Of a stretch of 35,667 nucleotides of DNA, positions 4,052-34,250 are shown one piece after another. The notes under the pieces are model-generated. The model was not told the origin of the DNA. It made no database searches and was given only the letters and a program-made list of their open reading frames with translations. Each line of letters begins with the position of its first letter. Position 1 is the stretch's first letter. A program made the position numbers and the translations under genes. Source of the DNA: Deltaproteobacteria bacterium (GTDB taxonomy: Bacteria; Bdellovibrionota_F; JAHFAK01). The stretch is from assembly GCA_023250585.1 (NCBI GenBank), contig JAHFAK010000009.1, forward strand, positions 1-35,667. The letters run 5' to 3'.

Positions 4052-4173
4052 AAAAGGCAATCAAAAGGTGGGGACCGACATGTGAGCTCATTTAGTAGGA
4101 GGCATTTTATTATCACATATTGATGCCTGCTCAATGCGTTCATATGTCGGTCCCCACCTTTTGATTGCCTTTT
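4052..4173. repeat. Long hairpin element (30-bp arms 4052-4081 / 4144-4173), singleton type in window
   Basis: AAAAGGCAATCAAAAGGTGGGGACCGACAT and its exact reverse complement; pairing continues imperfectly inward (TGAGCTCATT..AGGAGGCAT vs ATGCCTGCTCAATGCGTTCA). Confidence 0.95.
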
Positions 4174-5127: not shown

Positions 5128-5254
5128 CCGAAACGTGCCCGGCAACTTTCGGTCCATTTTCCGACCAAATGGTACCCTCACTTTACCCCATCTTTTACAT
5201 ATGGGTGTACCTTTTGGTCGATTTTTCGACCGAAAGTTGCCGGGCACGTTTCGG
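5128..5254. repeat. Long hairpin element (27-bp arms 5128-5154 / 5228-5254) with nested inner stem
   Basis: CCGAAACGTGCCCGGCAACTTTCGGTC and exact reverse complement; inner CGACCAAAtGGTAC / GTACCttTTGGTCG. Confidence 0.95.
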
Positions 5255-13471: not shown

Positions 13472-13486
13472 TAAATCTTACCGTAC

Positions 13487-13643
13487 GTAACAGCTCAGTT
13501 AATGGGGGAGTAAGGGAGTAGGAATGTTCTCACAAAGAATTTCTATCGACGTCGCTTCCATAATACTATTAAGAACGGGGTAAGCGCGCTCGATAGAAAT
13601 TCTTTGTGAGAACATTCCTACTCCCTTATAACTGATGGATTAC
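13487..13643 (+). repeat. Family A hairpin element copy 1 (38-bp perfect arms 13512-13549 / 13590-13627)
   Basis: AAGGGAGTAGGAATGTTCTCACAAAGAATTTCTATCGA and exact reverse complement around core CGTCGCTTCCATAATACTATTAAGAACGGGGTAAGCGCGC. Confidence 0.97.
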
Positions 13644-13699
13644 TACAGTACATACCGCCTCTTGACGGACTACCCATTCGGTATGATATACTATTTAAT

Positions 13700-19021: not shown

Positions 19022-19962
19022 AATCCTGTGATGTCGGTGTTATTGGAAGTGGGGTAGCAGGAATTTCTGCGCTTATCTGGCTTAAACGGCTCGGCTTGCA
19101 TGCAGTTATGTTCGAAAAAAATTCTTCAATTGGTGGGCAATTAATCAATGTTCATAATCGCATTATCGATTACCCTGCGTTGTATGGTCTTACGGGTAAT
19201 GAAATGATTACACAACTAACAAGCCATCTTGAAGCTTTACAATGTGAGTGGCAAACAAATGTGCATGTTCTTTCGCTTGATACTGAAAAAGAACACGTTA
19301 TACTCAAGCTTTCACGAAACTCAGGAACTACTGAAATGATTTCCTCGCGTTATGTAATTATAGCAACAGGAGCACAAGAACAAAAATTATCTATCCCCGG
19401 AGAAGATAAGCTCGATCTCTATCAGGGAAGCCTTTCAACATCTAAAGATATTTCGGTATTTAAGAATAAAAAAGTTATTATTATCGGCGGTGGAGATAGA
19501 GCATGTATTGGAGCCAATAGAATTAAAGACATTGCCCAAGAAGTTATTCTCATTCATCGACGAGCTAGTCTTACTGGACGCAAAGAATTGATAGATCCCC
19601 TCTTACAAAGTTCTCGTATAACCATTAAACCTCATTCAGTAGTGACTGAAATTATATGGAAAAATAAAAAAATTGAATTGGTAAAAATTAAAGATCTATC
19701 AAATCAAAAAGAAGTCATGATCCAAGCTGATATTGTATTAATTAGGATTGGAATAGAGCCAATTCTAGGCCTTCTAAAACAGTATCTTTCAAAAGAAGAT
19801 ACAATAATTCCCACGAATAATTATGGAAAGACACAATTCTCTGATAGGATTTATGCGATTGGAGATGCAAGCCATTCCCCTCACTATTCAAGCATTAGTG
19901 CTTCAGTTGGAGAAGGTATGCTTGCAGCAAAAGATATTTCACTGCACATCAGAAAAGAATGA
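19018..19962 (+). CDS. FAD-dependent pyridine nucleotide oxidoreductase, TrxR/ferredoxin-NADP reductase-like, lacking redox CxxC
   Basis: VGVIGSGVAGISALIWLKRLGLHAVMFEKNSSIGGQL, VIIIGGGDRACIGANRI, YAIGDASHSPHYSSISASVGEGMLAAKDI; no CxxC before the second Rossmann motif. Confidence 0.85.
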   Translation: MKSCDVGVIGSGVAGISALIWLKRLGLHAVMFEKNSSIGGQLINVHNRIIDYPALYGLTGNEMITQLTSHLEALQCEWQTNVHVLSLDTEKEHVILKLSRNSGTTEMISSRYVIIATGAQEQKLSIPGEDKLDLYQGSLSTSKDISVFKNKKVIIIGGGDRACIGANRIKDIAQEVILIHRRASLTGRKELIDPLLQSSRITIKPHSVVTEIIWKNKKIELVKIKDLSNQKEVMIQADIVLIRIGIEPILGLLKQYLSKEDTIIPTNNYGKTQFSDRIYAIGDASHSPHYSSISASVGEGMLAAKDISLHIRKE

Positions 19963-19968
19963 ATGTTG

Positions 19969-20124
19969 AATCCCTCAGTTATTAGGGAGTAGGAATGGTT
20001 CTCACAAAGAATTTCTATCGAGCGCGCTTTCGTGTTCTTAATAGTTTTATGGAAGCGACGTCGATAGAAATTCTTTGTGAGAACCATTCCTACTCCCTTA
20101 CTCCTCCATTAACTAAGCTGTTAC
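19969..20124 (-). repeat. Family A hairpin element copy 2 (38-bp perfect arms 19984-20021 / 20061-20098)
   Basis: AGGGAGTAGGAATGGTTCTCACAAAGAATTTCTATCGA and exact reverse complement; core in opposite orientation to copy 1, slightly diverged. Confidence 0.97.
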
Positions 20125-20131
20125 TGAATGT

Positions 20132-20764
20132 TTATTTCTTTTTATTCATTCGTGTATAGGTCATTGCCATTGTCATGAACTCTTTACCAGCTTCGTCCTT
20201 GGCCCACATGGTATAGGTAAGTTCATCTTTGCCTATCTTAAATTCACTGCGGAACCATTTATCTTGTTCACCAGTCATTGGACAGCTAGCACTTCCACTC
20301 TCTTTTATTGTCTTTGTAGCTGCATCATATTGCCCTGTTGATTTAAAAATACCGGTCATCATGTCATCCATCCAAATTGAATTATACTCTTTCTTTACTT
20401 TATCATAACCACAAAATCCCATGCCTTCGAATTTCTGACCAGCCCAATTGCCTTTGAATTCTTGTTTGATAAAACGTCCACCCAAAACCCAAGACATGGT
20501 GCTTGTGCCTTCGGATTTTTCTTCTGGAGCGCCTGGCTTCATCCATGATTTACTGGTAACTTTCCATTTTCCTACTACATCATTAAATACTGCATGTTCA
20601 GCACCGGGTGTGCCCATTTCTTTCATTTTAGCCATTTGAGCTTGCATCTCGGGAGTCATTTCCATTTTTCCCATGGCTTTTTTGTCAGCTGCATTGACTG
20701 CTGTAGCTAAGAAAATTGCCAGAATTAATCCTTGCATAAGTGTCTGTAATCGTTGTGTCTTCAT
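20132..20764 (-). CDS. DUF1579-type secreted protein
   Basis: Signal peptide LMQGLILAIFLATAVNAA; VGKWKVTSKSWMKPGAPEEKSEGTSTMSWVLGGRFIKQEFKGNWAGQKFEGMGFCGYDKVKKEY. Confidence 0.8.
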   Translation of the reverse strand: MKTQRLQTLMQGLILAIFLATAVNAADKKAMGKMEMTPEMQAQMAKMKEMGTPGAEHAVFNDVVGKWKVTSKSWMKPGAPEEKSEGTSTMSWVLGGRFIKQEFKGNWAGQKFEGMGFCGYDKVKKEYNSIWMDDMMTGIFKSTGQYDAATKTIKESGSASCPMTGEQDKWFRSEFKIGKDELTYTMWAKDEAGKEFMTMAMTYTRMNKKK

Positions 20765-20899
20765 GTGATCCTCCTAATAAATTGTTAAAATTTTAAATTA
20801 CACCAACGTCGAATGAATTGGTTTAGACATAACTTTTTCGATATAAATAATTGTCTAACAATACCAAAAGGTCAAGACAAATCTCTGAATTGACGTACC

Positions 20900-20986
20900 A
20901 TACTCAGTCGCATTCAAAATGATAACGAAGCGGCGAGGAGCTTCCGATGAAGCCAACGAAGTTAGCGTTTGAATGCGACTGCGTAT
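20900..20986 (+). repeat. Family B hairpin element copy 1 (19-bp arms 20900-20918 / 20968-20986, one mismatch)
   Basis: ATACTCAGTCGCATTCAAA vs reverse complement ATACGCAGTCGCATTCAAA; core ATGATAACGAAGCGGCGAGGAG...GAAGCCAACGAAGTTAGCG. Confidence 0.93.
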
Positions 20987-21029
20987 CAATTGACTTCTCA
21001 TCTCACCTGTATTATCAGTTTTAGAAGCT

Positions 21030-25145: not shown

Positions 25146-28100
25146 CTATTTCAGTTTCTGATTACATTGATCAGAAGGATAGTAGTAATCGTTTTCTTTC
25201 CCGCTGCTGGCTTCTGTTCGAGTAACGTTGATGGGATACTCCCAGTTACAAGTACACCAAGCGTCTCCTGGTTCGCCATTATCCCATATAACTCGTGCAT
25301 TTGCTTTTTGCAATTGGACGCCCGGATTCATAACAGAAAAGAAATTATCATGCTCAAGATCAATATGAATGTCATATTTTGCCGGAGATGAGCTGTCAGT
25401 CTGATAAGCGCAGGTTATTTTCCATTGCTTAAAATAATCGCAGGTTTTGTCGAGTTCTTCTGAAACACCAATATTTGCACGGTATAACTTTTCATTGATG
25501 TAAAGAAAAGCATTTATATTCCCACATTGAGGCTGACACCAATACATCGCATTGTCTGGAGTTCGTTCAACGTGAAGTTGTGTGCACATCATATTTCCGA
25601 CAAGATCTCTTGCCGAACCATCACTAACTTCAGGGTCATAGAGAGGGTCATAGAATATTTTTAAGCTATTTCCAAGATTTCCTTTTTGTTTATTACAGGT
25701 ATTCTCACATTGTTCTCTTCCTTCAACCGTTGAAGATCCAGAAGCCACCTTTGGAGCAGGAATAGGCCCAGGAATACTAACACTCCATTTTCCTAATAAT
25801 GGACAGCGCTGGCTTGCATATGTTTCGGTAGTAATCTGATTTGCATCATGATCAGCTGCCTCTGCTTGTTTCTTACAAGAAGACCACTTAAGTGATCCCA
25901 CTAAGGATTTATAAGCATTGTCATTAATAACTTTCGTTTTCCACATCATACGAAGTTTTTCTAGGGCAGCAGACGTACGGCACCCTGCTGCAGGCATAGC
26001 AGCCCAACCTTCATAATTAAACAATCCATAAGATAGGTCACAATAATAACTTTGTTCTTGCTGAGGATTTAAATACTTTGAAAAATCATTTTGTACATTA
26101 GAAAAACTTTCAGGAATAAGAAAACTTGTAAAATATTCTGCCGCATCCTCTCCCGATCCTCCGTTTAGTTTCCACATACAAGTACCATACTCGCTTATCC
26201 CGGGCCCATGTGCATTATTAGCTTCATTCCATGGCCCGTATACATAGGATCCAGCAGCATTCCATGCATATGGAATAAGTCTCGTATGAAAATGCCATCC
26301 ATGCCCAAATTCATGAATAACTGTATGCTCGGCCGGCCATAGCATTGTAAAGGTACAGGATGTTTCTTCTAAAAAGACACGCAGCTCTATAGTATCGGGA
26401 TACTTATACCATCCAGAGACTCCGCCAGCCATATCAGAAGTGAAGATAATGACTTGTACCCATTTATGTAAGACAGCTTTATCTAAATTTGTTCTAGAAT
26501 GATTCGTCATACTCAGATAAGCAGTATGAATAGTACAATAGGTGTAGGGATGAACCTCATATTGTTTATCAAGATTTTTTCTTAATAATTCTACACCCCA
26601 ATTCTTTTCCACGCATGCTTCTGTTTGAATCTGACAGCAATCTTCCATCCCCTCTTCTGCTTGCGCTTCCTTCTCCACAGGAAATGCTTTCATCCATTGA
26701 GACCATTTACTATTACGAGGTCCTTGTTCATTCATTGCAGTCTCTATCTCTGCATCACTGGCCTTGAACTCGAACACTTTATTGCCGTTTGTATCACTGA
26801 TATGGATTGTTTCTAATACTTTTGAATCCATAGCAGCAGGAATAAGAGCTGTACCGTATAAAGTAGAATCTGTTGGTATGGTTGTCGGTTGACAATTATC
26901 GGGAGAGTCACATTCTTGATACACTGGATCTATGGTCGCCGCAGCAAAAGATAGGTATGAGGTATACATCTCCTCTCCTTCAGCATCATAGCCATGGAGG
27001 ATGTAAGAACGATCAGTCAATGCTTTCGTATATTTATTTACCCATACCTTATAATCAGGATGTGAATGTTTAATAAAGTCTTCACACTGTATTTGTTCAT
27101 TTTCATCGAGTTTACAATCGAGCGAATACAATTCATTTGCTTCAATAAGCTCTATGCTATCATCGTCATTGTCACTGCTTTCTCCTTGATCTTGGGTACA
27201 AAGACTAACAATAGCGTTAAACTCTTCATCACAACCACTGAGGTTTATATCTTCTAAACTACTGAGGCTACATGTCACATTCTTAACATAGGTATCAACA
27301 CACGAATTTAGTTCTGCTTCTATAGCATTCATCGTTGCTTCATCAGTTGGACAATCATCGGGATATGACTCAGCACAACTCACCGTACAGCTTTGGATAG
27401 AAGCAGTCTTTACTGAATCGGGAAGTGCAAGATTACATTTCTCTATCGTCTTATTCCATAAATCCTCACAGAAATCCTGGCACATTTTTGATTCATTCGA
27501 AGTATCAGGTGTATCACAAACATCACCTATTCCATCATTATCAATATCAGATTGCTGTGGATTTCCTATGTCAGGACAATTATCTTTTGAGTCTTCTATT
27601 CCATCATTATCTGAATCCTTTGGCTTACTCGTATCTGTTCCGTCACATACATTTCCTAGACCATCACTATCTATATCCTGCTGATCTGCATTCGCCGTAT
27701 ATTTGCAGTTATCCTTCTCATTCTCGATTTCATCTCCATCGACATCATTATCACATTCATCACCGAGCCCATCTCCATCAATATCAGATTGACCATTGTT
27801 AGATACTTGAGGACAATTATCTTCGCTATCTTTCTTCCCATCTCCATCGGTATCTGGAATATTCACCTCAGCAGTATCACTTTCTTTCGTTTCTTCCTCT
27901 GTGGCTTGAGTATGAATACGTGCATCGTAGTCAGCTCTGTCCTTATCGTCATTAATGCCATCATTGTCATCATCAGGATCACAGGCATCACCTATTCCAT
28001 CCTTATCAAAATCATCCTGGCTATGATTCTCTACTGTAGGGCAATTATCCACTAAATCATATATTTCATCGCGATCATTATCATCGCAGGCATCACCGAT

Positions 28101-28442
28101 TCCATCTCCATCGCTATCTTTCTGATCCGCATTTACTATTGTTGGACAATTATCCTTACTATCATTTATTCCATCATTATCATCGTCCGGATCGCAGGTA
28201 TTTTTGATCCCATCATTATCGTTGTCTCCATCACTTTGAGAAGATACACATTCCTCAGAAACAACATTCCCTTCAGCCGTTACTTGCGCTTCTGTCTCTT
28301 TTTCGCTGTCTGAATCCCCACCTCCTCCACACGGAAACCCAAATGAAAAGATAATAACAATAAGACCTACGATAATAAAGATGAGCGCTATCGGAAGATT
28401 CTTTCGATGACTTAAAAGATATTTACGACAAAGTAATAGAAT
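25146..28442 (-). CDS. Large TSP3-repeat lipoprotein with zincin-like HExxH motif; probable non-canonical ATT start at 28442 (track start 28052 is a GTG inside the repeats)
   Basis: Frame stays open upstream of 28052 through TSP3 repeats (TCDPDDDNDGINDSKDNCPTIVNADQKDSDGDGIGDACD) and a lipoprotein-like signal (RKNLPIALIFIIVGLIVIIFSFGFPCGGGGDSD) to a TAG; HTVIHEFGHGWHFH motif at 26292-26315. Confidence 0.75.
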   Translation of the reverse strand: MLLLCRKYLLSHRKNLPIALIFIIVGLIVIIFSFGFPCGGGGDSDSEKETEAQVTAEGNVVSEECVSSQSDGDNDNDGIKNTCDPDDDNDGINDSKDNCPTIVNADQKDSDGDGIGDACDDNDRDEIYDLVDNCPTVENHSQDDFDKDGIGDACDPDDDNDGINDDKDRADYDARIHTQATEEETKESDTAEVNIPDTDGDGKKDSEDNCPQVSNNGQSDIDGDGLGDECDNDVDGDEIENEKDNCKYTANADQQDIDSDGLGNVCDGTDTSKPKDSDNDGIEDSKDNCPDIGNPQQSDIDNDGIGDVCDTPDTSNESKMCQDFCEDLWNKTIEKCNLALPDSVKTASIQSCTVSCAESYPDDCPTDEATMNAIEAELNSCVDTYVKNVTCSLSSLEDINLSGCDEEFNAIVSLCTQDQGESSDNDDDSIELIEANELYSLDCKLDENEQIQCEDFIKHSHPDYKVWVNKYTKALTDRSYILHGYDAEGEEMYTSYLSFAAATIDPVYQECDSPDNCQPTTIPTDSTLYGTALIPAAMDSKVLETIHISDTNGNKVFEFKASDAEIETAMNEQGPRNSKWSQWMKAFPVEKEAQAEEGMEDCCQIQTEACVEKNWGVELLRKNLDKQYEVHPYTYCTIHTAYLSMTNHSRTNLDKAVLHKWVQVIIFTSDMAGGVSGWYKYPDTIELRVFLEETSCTFTMLWPAEHTVIHEFGHGWHFHTRLIPYAWNAAGSYVYGPWNEANNAHGPGISEYGTCMWKLNGGSGEDAAEYFTSFLIPESFSNVQNDFSKYLNPQQEQSYYCDLSYGLFNYEGWAAMPAAGCRTSAALEKLRMMWKTKVINDNAYKSLVGSLKWSSCKKQAEAADHDANQITTETYASQRCPLLGKWSVSIPGPIPAPKVASGSSTVEGREQCENTCNKQKGNLGNSLKIFYDPLYDPEVSDGSARDLVGNMMCTQLHVERTPDNAMYWCQPQCGNINAFLYINEKLYRANIGVSEELDKTCDYFKQWKITCAYQTDSSSPAKYDIHIDLEHDNFFSVMNPGVQLQKANARVIWDNGEPGDAWCTCNWEYPINVTRTEASSGKENDYYYPSDQCNQKLK

Positions 28443-29349: not shown

Positions 29350-29415
29350 ATGATCTCCTTTATCTATAATGTACATAATTACGTACATCAAGTCAAGACG
29401 AGTATTTACTCATAT

Positions 29416-29572
29416 GTAATGGCTCAGTTAATGGGAGAGTTAGGGGATAAGCATGTTCCCAAAAAGAATTTCTATCGACGTCGCTTCCATAATACTATTA
29501 AGAACGGGGTAAGCGCGCTCGATAGAAATTCTTTTTGGGAACATGCTTATCCCCTAATAACGGAGGGATTAC
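29416..29572 (+). repeat. Family A hairpin element copy 3 (38-bp perfect arms 29441-29478 / 29519-29556)
   Basis: TAGGGGATAAGCATGTTCCCAAAAAGAATTTCTATCGA and exact reverse complement; core identical to copy 1. Confidence 0.97.
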
Positions 29573-29626
29573 TCTCATATTAAATACGTTTGACTGACTT
29601 TTGGTAACCGAATATAGTCAAACAAC

Positions 29627-32971: not shown

Positions 32972-32982
32972 ATAAACTATTG

Positions 32983-33106
32983 ATACTAAGTTGCATTCAA
33001 ACGCTAACTGCGTTGGCTTCGTCGTCGGCTCCTCAACGTACTCATTACGTACGTTTGCGTCGCCTTCTCCTTGCCGACGTTTATCATTTTGAATGCAACT
33101 TAGTAT
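32983..33106 (-). repeat. Family B hairpin element copy 2 (19-bp perfect arms 32983-33001 / 33088-33106)
   Basis: ATACTAAGTTGCATTCAAA and exact reverse complement; reverse complement of core starts ATGATAAACG and ends GAAGCCAACGCAGTTAGCG as in copy 1. Confidence 0.93.
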
Positions 33107-33113
33107 GAAAACC

Positions 33114-33233
33114 GTAGAGAGGATGTATATGTTCTGTTTTTATTTTGTATCGAGCGCGCTTACCCCGTTCTTAATAGTATTATGGAAGCGACGTCGATAG
33201 AAAATAAAAACAGAACATATACATCCTCTCTAC
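33114..33233 (-). repeat. Family A hairpin element copy 4 with divergent arms (40-bp arms 33114-33153 / 33194-33233, one mismatch)
   Basis: GTAGAGAGGATGTATATGTTCTGTTTTTATTTTGTATCGA vs reverse complement ...TTTTCTATCGA; core is the exact reverse complement of copies 1 and 3. Confidence 0.96.
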
Positions 33234-34149: not shown

Positions 34150-34210
34150 ACTTATGGCGATCTTTATCCTCTTTAGTGATTTTTGGCAAGAAGCTTTCAG
34201 ATGTGAAAAT

Positions 34211-34250
34211 AACAGCTCAGTAAATGGGGGAGTTAGGGAGTACATATGAA
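34211..34250 (+). repeat. Family A solo half-element (left flank plus start of arm only)
   Basis: AACAGCTCAGTAAATGGGGGAGTTAGGGAGTACATATGAA matches the left flank of copy 1 (AACAGCTCAGTTAATGGGGGAGTAAGGGAGTA); no core or right arm follows. Confidence 0.8.

Follow-up and report, generated by a model that had tools for sequence, protein, structure and literature searches.

Family A is a real and new family of palindromic repeats, non-coding, non-autonomous and apparently restricted to one lineage, and the two arms of its hairpins have probably been homogenised by template switching during replication, i.e. by quasipalindrome correction. The process is known, the repeat family is new and the scale is unusual. 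Four copies lie in the window, by which we mean the whole analysed stretch of 35,667 nucleotides, and searches of the host genome show that the family extends beyond it. The host genome (2.24 Mb in 164 contigs, 96.7% complete) holds about 79 copies as counted with a covariance model, and 74 distinct copies were read with their flanks; in these the arms are ~38-54 bp long and the shared hairpin tip is ~45 nt. The model, which was trained on 65 of the 74 copies, recovers the read set and adds three extra copies on contigs C24, C25 and C44. A 22-nt segment of the loop, with up to three mismatches allowed, matches the genome 76 times and the reversed pattern not once. No copy was found with the covariance model in one other genome of the phylum, with an exact degenerate pattern in 84,980 other genomes and viral contigs, or with BLAST in plasmids and phages. 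The range appears limited to one lineage of an uncultured phylum, of which two genomes were compared. RibBA, a riboflavin synthesis enzyme encoded in the window, has unclassified and 'Deltaproteobacteria' MAGs as its nearest named relatives, at ~60-64% identity.

The four copies in the window sit where the original prediction had placed them; copies 1 and 3 carry the core on the plus strand, copies 2 and 4 on the minus strand. Copy 1 (13487..13643, plus strand) belongs to type 1, the MITE form of the family, and ends in GTAACAGCTCAGTTA and TAACTGATGGATTAC; its folding energy is -49 kcal/mol against -9.8 in shuffles (z -16.4). Its left arm, the stretch that evolves in concert, spans 13512..13549 and the complementary right arm 13590..13627, and between them lies the conserved tip (13550..13589; all three on the plus strand), with a CG step, staggered 1-nt bulges, an inner stem of 5-7 bp and a loop of 17-19 nt. 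The target-site duplication to its left, TACCGTAC (13479..13486), is read from the sequence together with the duplication statistics given below, and is matched in 7/8 bases by TACAGTAC on the right (13644..13651). Copy 2, also type 1 (19968..20124, minus strand), is flanked by an 8/8 duplication, TGAATGTT (19960-19967 and 20125-20132), which was read directly from the sequence, the automatic scan having overlooked it with a left end that was one base short. Copy 3 (29416..29572, plus strand, type 1) has the duplication ACTCATAT/TCTCATAT at 29408-29415 and 29573-29580, alike in 7/8 bases. Copy 4 (33114..33233, minus strand) is of type 2, without GTAAY ends and without a target duplication, and has a T-rich inner 5' arm. 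The core said to be common to all four copies is not identical in copy 2 (CCATAAAACTATTAAGAACACGA), and the arm length of 38-40 bp given for the family does not fit copy 4, whose arms measure 48 bp and carry one C.C mismatch.

A solitary type 1 outer end without a core, ATAACAGCTCAGTAAATGGGGGAGTTAGGGAGTA, is found at 34209..34242 (to 34245, plus strand) and overlaps the 5' end of the era open reading frame; the first 38 residues of this frame fall beyond the match to the Era family, and the true start may lie downstream. Another repeated palindromic element, with the ends TTGATACTAAGTTGCATTCAAA, occurs at 32979-33109, where it directly adjoins copy 4, and at 20899-20990, and a related sequence truncates a Family A copy elsewhere in the genome (L078). 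The window also has a long run of a degenerate 99-nt repeat at 27513-28181, as does locus L121, and these runs encode repeats rich in Asp that resemble thrombospondin type 3 repeats.

The arms of each copy change together. Over 32 arm positions, and with no copies excluded, the two arms pair at 96.5% of positions in type 1 and 93.7% in type 2, while the left arm of one copy pairs with the right arm of another at 73% and 58%, respectively, the same as the identity between left arms. Perfect arms are found in 29 of 39 type 1 copies and in 20 of 35 type 2 copies, and the pairing score for type 1 is 1204, against 989 for the best of 1000 shuffles. In the window, the seven arm differences that had been noticed between copy 1 (13512-13549) and copy 3 (29441-29478) are present, and 7/7 are mirrored in the opposite arm. 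An alignment was made of the 65 copies with at most three arm mismatches, nine others being excluded for more mismatches than that or for register shifts. Of the 1625 cells of its 25-bp outer stem, 490 are changed on both sides, four on one side only (all G.U) and 16 are unpaired, where the double-sided changes are not independent events since the copies are related. Type 1 copies that are only one to three arm positions apart show 78 mirrored and six unmirrored differences. That the nearest copies already differ by mirrored changes argues against stepwise compensation, which would give single unmirrored changes first. Some of the excluded copies (e.g. L009, L028, L072 and L099) have badly matched, uncorrected arms, and such copies look like recent recombinants. 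Two of them, L009 on contig C140 and L072 on contig C61, have an identical left flank, a second repeated sequence, which suggests recombination or duplication through Family A copies.

The concerted stretch has limits on both sides. The outermost 15 nt at each end, beyond a 9-nt asymmetry, serve as an internal control, and here the likeness is 0.70 within a copy and 0.74 between copies. The 5-bp inner stem past the bulges has two double-sided, three one-sided and four unpaired changes in the 65 copies, a pattern that differs from that of the outer stem (p = 1.5e-8). As neither the outer ends nor the inner stem are coordinated, the homogenising process keeps largely to the part that is paired without interruption. 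A few tracts do go further: the outer asymmetry has been crossed in L029 and L031, which have become short on both sides, and in L069, which is long on both, and the bulges have been erased from left to right in L013 (minus strand), L016 and L105 and from right to left in L021. The bulges are thus lost in four of the 74 copies and kept in about 70. The tip can also be turned around. With the long and the short outer end of type 1 as reference, 19 copies have it in one orientation and 14 in the opposite one, and two pairs of opposite orientation, copy 1 with L026 and L018 with L088, are just one arm position apart.

We think that template switching would account for these observations. During DNA replication one arm would be used as the template for the other, which would leave the two matching, and an intermolecular version of the same arm-to-arm switch would invert the part that lies between them. 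The copying would act on the uninterrupted paired stretch and would seldom cross the 9-nt asymmetry outside it or the staggered bulges inside it. The comparison of copies indicates that arms are made identical in one step (78 mirrored against six unmirrored differences, and 490 double-sided cells against 20 others), and the spacer is found inverted between otherwise like copies (19:14, and the pairs one position apart). Template switching or gene conversion was the second choice of the original prediction, and it is the one that is well supported, by the mirrored changes in the closest copies, the few G.U intermediates, the inversion of the core and the co-converted asymmetries. Arm homogenisation and spacer inversion are two documented outcomes of template switching. 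The closest parallels are the switching between inverted repeats in yeast, which homogenises the arms and inverts the spacer (PMC8604942), the E. coli quasipalindromes that turn into perfect palindromes (PMC7202029), and the inverted repeats of nematomorph mitochondria, whose perfection is binary (PMC6649704). The case for template switching, which we hold to be the most likely reading, rests on comparing copies within one genome that carries Family A. Several points speak against it. Efficient copying should have lost the bulges in more than four of 74 copies, and to explain why it has not one needs selection or else a switch point that lies beyond the bulges. The arms also diverge much faster than the loop, and some copies have kept arms that match badly.

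The family falls into two forms, type 1 with 39 of the 74 copies, among them copies 1-3 of the window, and type 2 with 35, including copy 4, a split made with a simple motif test that has possibly misfiled some copies (e.g. L010, L056 and L069). Type 1 copies are ~157 bp long, lack coding capacity, and are dispersed and intergenic. They have conserved terminal repeats, GTAAY..CTCAGTTA, which lie outside the arms, and one side holds nine extra nucleotides (ATGGGGGAG). The end motif GTAAYNNCTCAGTTA has 126 matches in the genome against nine for a reversed control. An 8-bp target duplication with at least 7/8 bases alike flanks 25 of the 34 copies that could be measured, whereas shuffles give 0.8 on average and 4 at most. 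The terminal repeats and the 8-bp duplications indicate that type 1 copies were inserted as double-stranded elements, and these copies, including 1-3 in the window, are MITEs. The drifting arms had been taken to set the family apart from MITEs with their conserved terminal repeats, a premise that fails because the real terminal repeats are those outside the arms, and they are conserved. The mover is presumably a transposase that acts in trans and makes 8-bp duplications. No autonomous partner with type 1 ends was found among the paired ends in the 164 contigs; on contigs C60 and C42, where paired ends seemed to enclose such an element, they are separate insertions around host genes. The GTAA ends and the 8-bp duplication had also given the idea of an IS66 transposase, but no IS66-type transposase gene was found in the 164-contig assembly. 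A second and unrelated hairpin, GGATCCCGTGGTCAAGCCACGGGATGACAA, lies between the same ends (GTAAY..ATTAC), again flanked by 8-bp duplications, at seven loci (L114, L115, L116, L118, L119, L120 and L132, on contigs C14, C42, C62, C61, C15, C82 and C144, respectively). As the same ends enclose this hairpin too, the MITE carries palindromes of more than one kind.

Type 2 copies have the same tip and T-rich inner arms, and outer arms that vary among copies, and they are without the type 1 ends. Their arms are more divergent between copies than those of type 1, and the repeats in their flanks are no longer than in shuffles, i.e. no target duplication above chance is seen. Type 2, and with it copy 4, thus has neither the conserved ends nor the target duplication of a MITE. 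The outer arms were considered as copies of the flanks, which was judged unlikely as they have a weak purine-rich consensus, GGAGTR..ATATGTTCT, in common. A short open frame from ATGTTC inside the arms was also discarded, since by eye the frame is not the same in the two types and several copies lack the ATG.

An alternative is that the pairing of the arms is maintained by selection for a folded hairpin, as RNA or as DNA, with each mutation in one arm later compensated in the other. The covariation is very strong, the loop and bulges are conserved, and every copy of both forms is intergenic and often sits tight between genes, type 2 often occupying the short gap that separates two neighbours. 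Transcription of the minus strand would make most of the few transitions G.U (11 vs 4, p = 0.12). On the core strand, however, G.U is rarer than A.C (4 vs 11), and the G.U intermediates that a structured RNA should leave on its transcribed strand are scarce, with one-sided states in only four of the 1625 outer-stem cells of 65 copies. The closest copies differ by changes that are already mirrored, the tip has no favoured direction relative to the neighbouring genes (type 2: ++ 11, -- 8), and no part of the window matches Rfam at the gathering thresholds. We consider hairpin selection quite unlikely as the cause of the matching arms. Mismatch repair of extruded hairpins or cruciforms would be another way than template switching to homogenise arms. 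MutS is present in the genome, and single mismatches vanish while larger asymmetries stay, as this would predict. One-base bulges are good substrates for MutS, and still about 70 of 74 copies have kept their staggered, conserved bulges; nor does repair explain the inversion of the tip, and we regard it as very unlikely. SbcCD cuts long hairpins in E. coli, and in the assembly, which is 96.7% complete, SbcC had no match and SbcD none over the cut-off. This apparent lack may help hairpins to survive and may let many long ones persist.

The first choice of the original prediction was that the family is copied as a folded single strand, by the logic of REP/RAYT or attC. The arms would then be rebuilt at each transposition, one arm serving as template for resynthesis of the other upon integration. 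This would yield perfect arms in each new copy, the conserved part is indeed the bulge-bearing tip, type 2 lacks target duplications, and compensatory changes are seen also in the spacers of REPINs (PMC3116915). Against it stand the 8-bp duplications and conserved double-strand terminal repeats of type 1, and the outer ends, which belong to the same moving unit and are not in concert. For copies 1-3, which are MITEs, the claim found no support. Three RAYT-like genes and one IS200 transposase are present in the genome, none with a Family A hairpin alongside, and there is no reverse transcriptase (no RVT_1 match), which leaves a retron, a DGR or a group II intron without its enzyme. We find rebuilding of the arms by single-strand movement hard to believe in, and to about the same degree as hairpin selection. 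A RAYT as mover of Family A was rejected, since each RAYT-like gene goes with other hairpin families. L135 on contig C32 is flanked by a CCGAAACGTGCCCGGC hairpin of the same family as the one at 5128-5254 in the window (CCGAAACGTGCCCGGCAACTTTCGG...), which is likely a REP pair of this RAYT, and L137 on contig C47 is flanked by AAAGGTGGGGACCGACATATG hairpins, with a family member at 4052-4173 in the window (AAAAGGTGGGGACCGACATRTG...) that is likewise its likely REP pair; L136 contains an internal GTAGGGGCGACC hairpin of its own. The hairpins linked to L135 and L137 thus occur in the window too, and in addition to Family A the genome holds REP/RAYT systems, at least two of them.

The tip evolves differently from the arms. 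Nearly all copies share the consensus GACGTYGCTTCCATAANANTNTTAAGAACNGR..AGCGCGMTC, and loop identity between copies is 91-94%, far above that of the arms, whose divergence is several times that of the loop. The 3x3 internal mismatch described earlier is not what the fold predicted with DNA energies gives, which is a paired CG/CG step flanked by two bulged bases, one of them a T and the other, on the opposite side, C or A. Neutral copying between arms would change pairs at about the rate of single sites, which makes it probable that loop and bulges are constrained, unless the arms hypermutate. It could be, though this is a weaker inference, that the tip stays constant because something recognises it. 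To go one step further, the CG step between staggered bulges and the conserved loop might themselves be the unit of a new mobile system, in which an enzyme that reads structure moves the tip-bearing hairpin as folded DNA, and the MITE captured the tip later. We hold this to be unlikely, if somewhat less so than the alternatives above; were it true, only the tip would need to be conserved and any self-complementary arms would suffice.

If the arms are homogenised by template switching, some 74 natural copies with asymmetries on both sides and unconverted ends are a rare record of the perfection of palindromes, from which the direction, the tract limits and the inversion can be read. It also means that very strong covariation, which tends to be accepted as proof of a functional RNA structure, can come from DNA copying alone, and that the tell-tale of such copying is a shortage of G.U intermediates together with mirrored changes between the closest copies.

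Compared with known systems, Family A has something in common with several. The attC sites of integrons are hairpins with a variable stem and bulged bases. Family A hairpins are alike in this, but have their conserved part at the tip and not at the base, and are scattered singly with no cassette array. Type 1 resembles bacterial MITEs, such as the enterobacterial RU repeats as far as these are outlined in PMC2759123, in being ~157 bp long, non-coding and intergenic, with terminal repeats and target duplications of 8 bp, and differs from bacterial MITEs in general in its variable yet paired inner inverted repeat and in having a second form without terminal repeats. REP and REPIN elements (PMC3116915, PMC3733652) are also numerous intergenic hairpins, with compensatory changes in the REPIN spacers and some REP dimers inside longer palindromes. 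REPs have GTAG- or CGTC-tagged short stems of 5-13 bp at their ends (PMC3733652), whereas Family A has stems of 38-54 bp, variable ends and no cognate RAYT; REPINs keep the ends and vary the middle, and Family A does the reverse, with a conserved middle and variable arms. Quasipalindrome correction shares with Family A the perfect arms, the changes in both arms at once, the invertible spacer and the few imperfect intermediates. The cited cases concern an individual site or one group of genes, while in Family A the process would act on ~74 dispersed copies of a mobile family, with a conserved tip as its limit.
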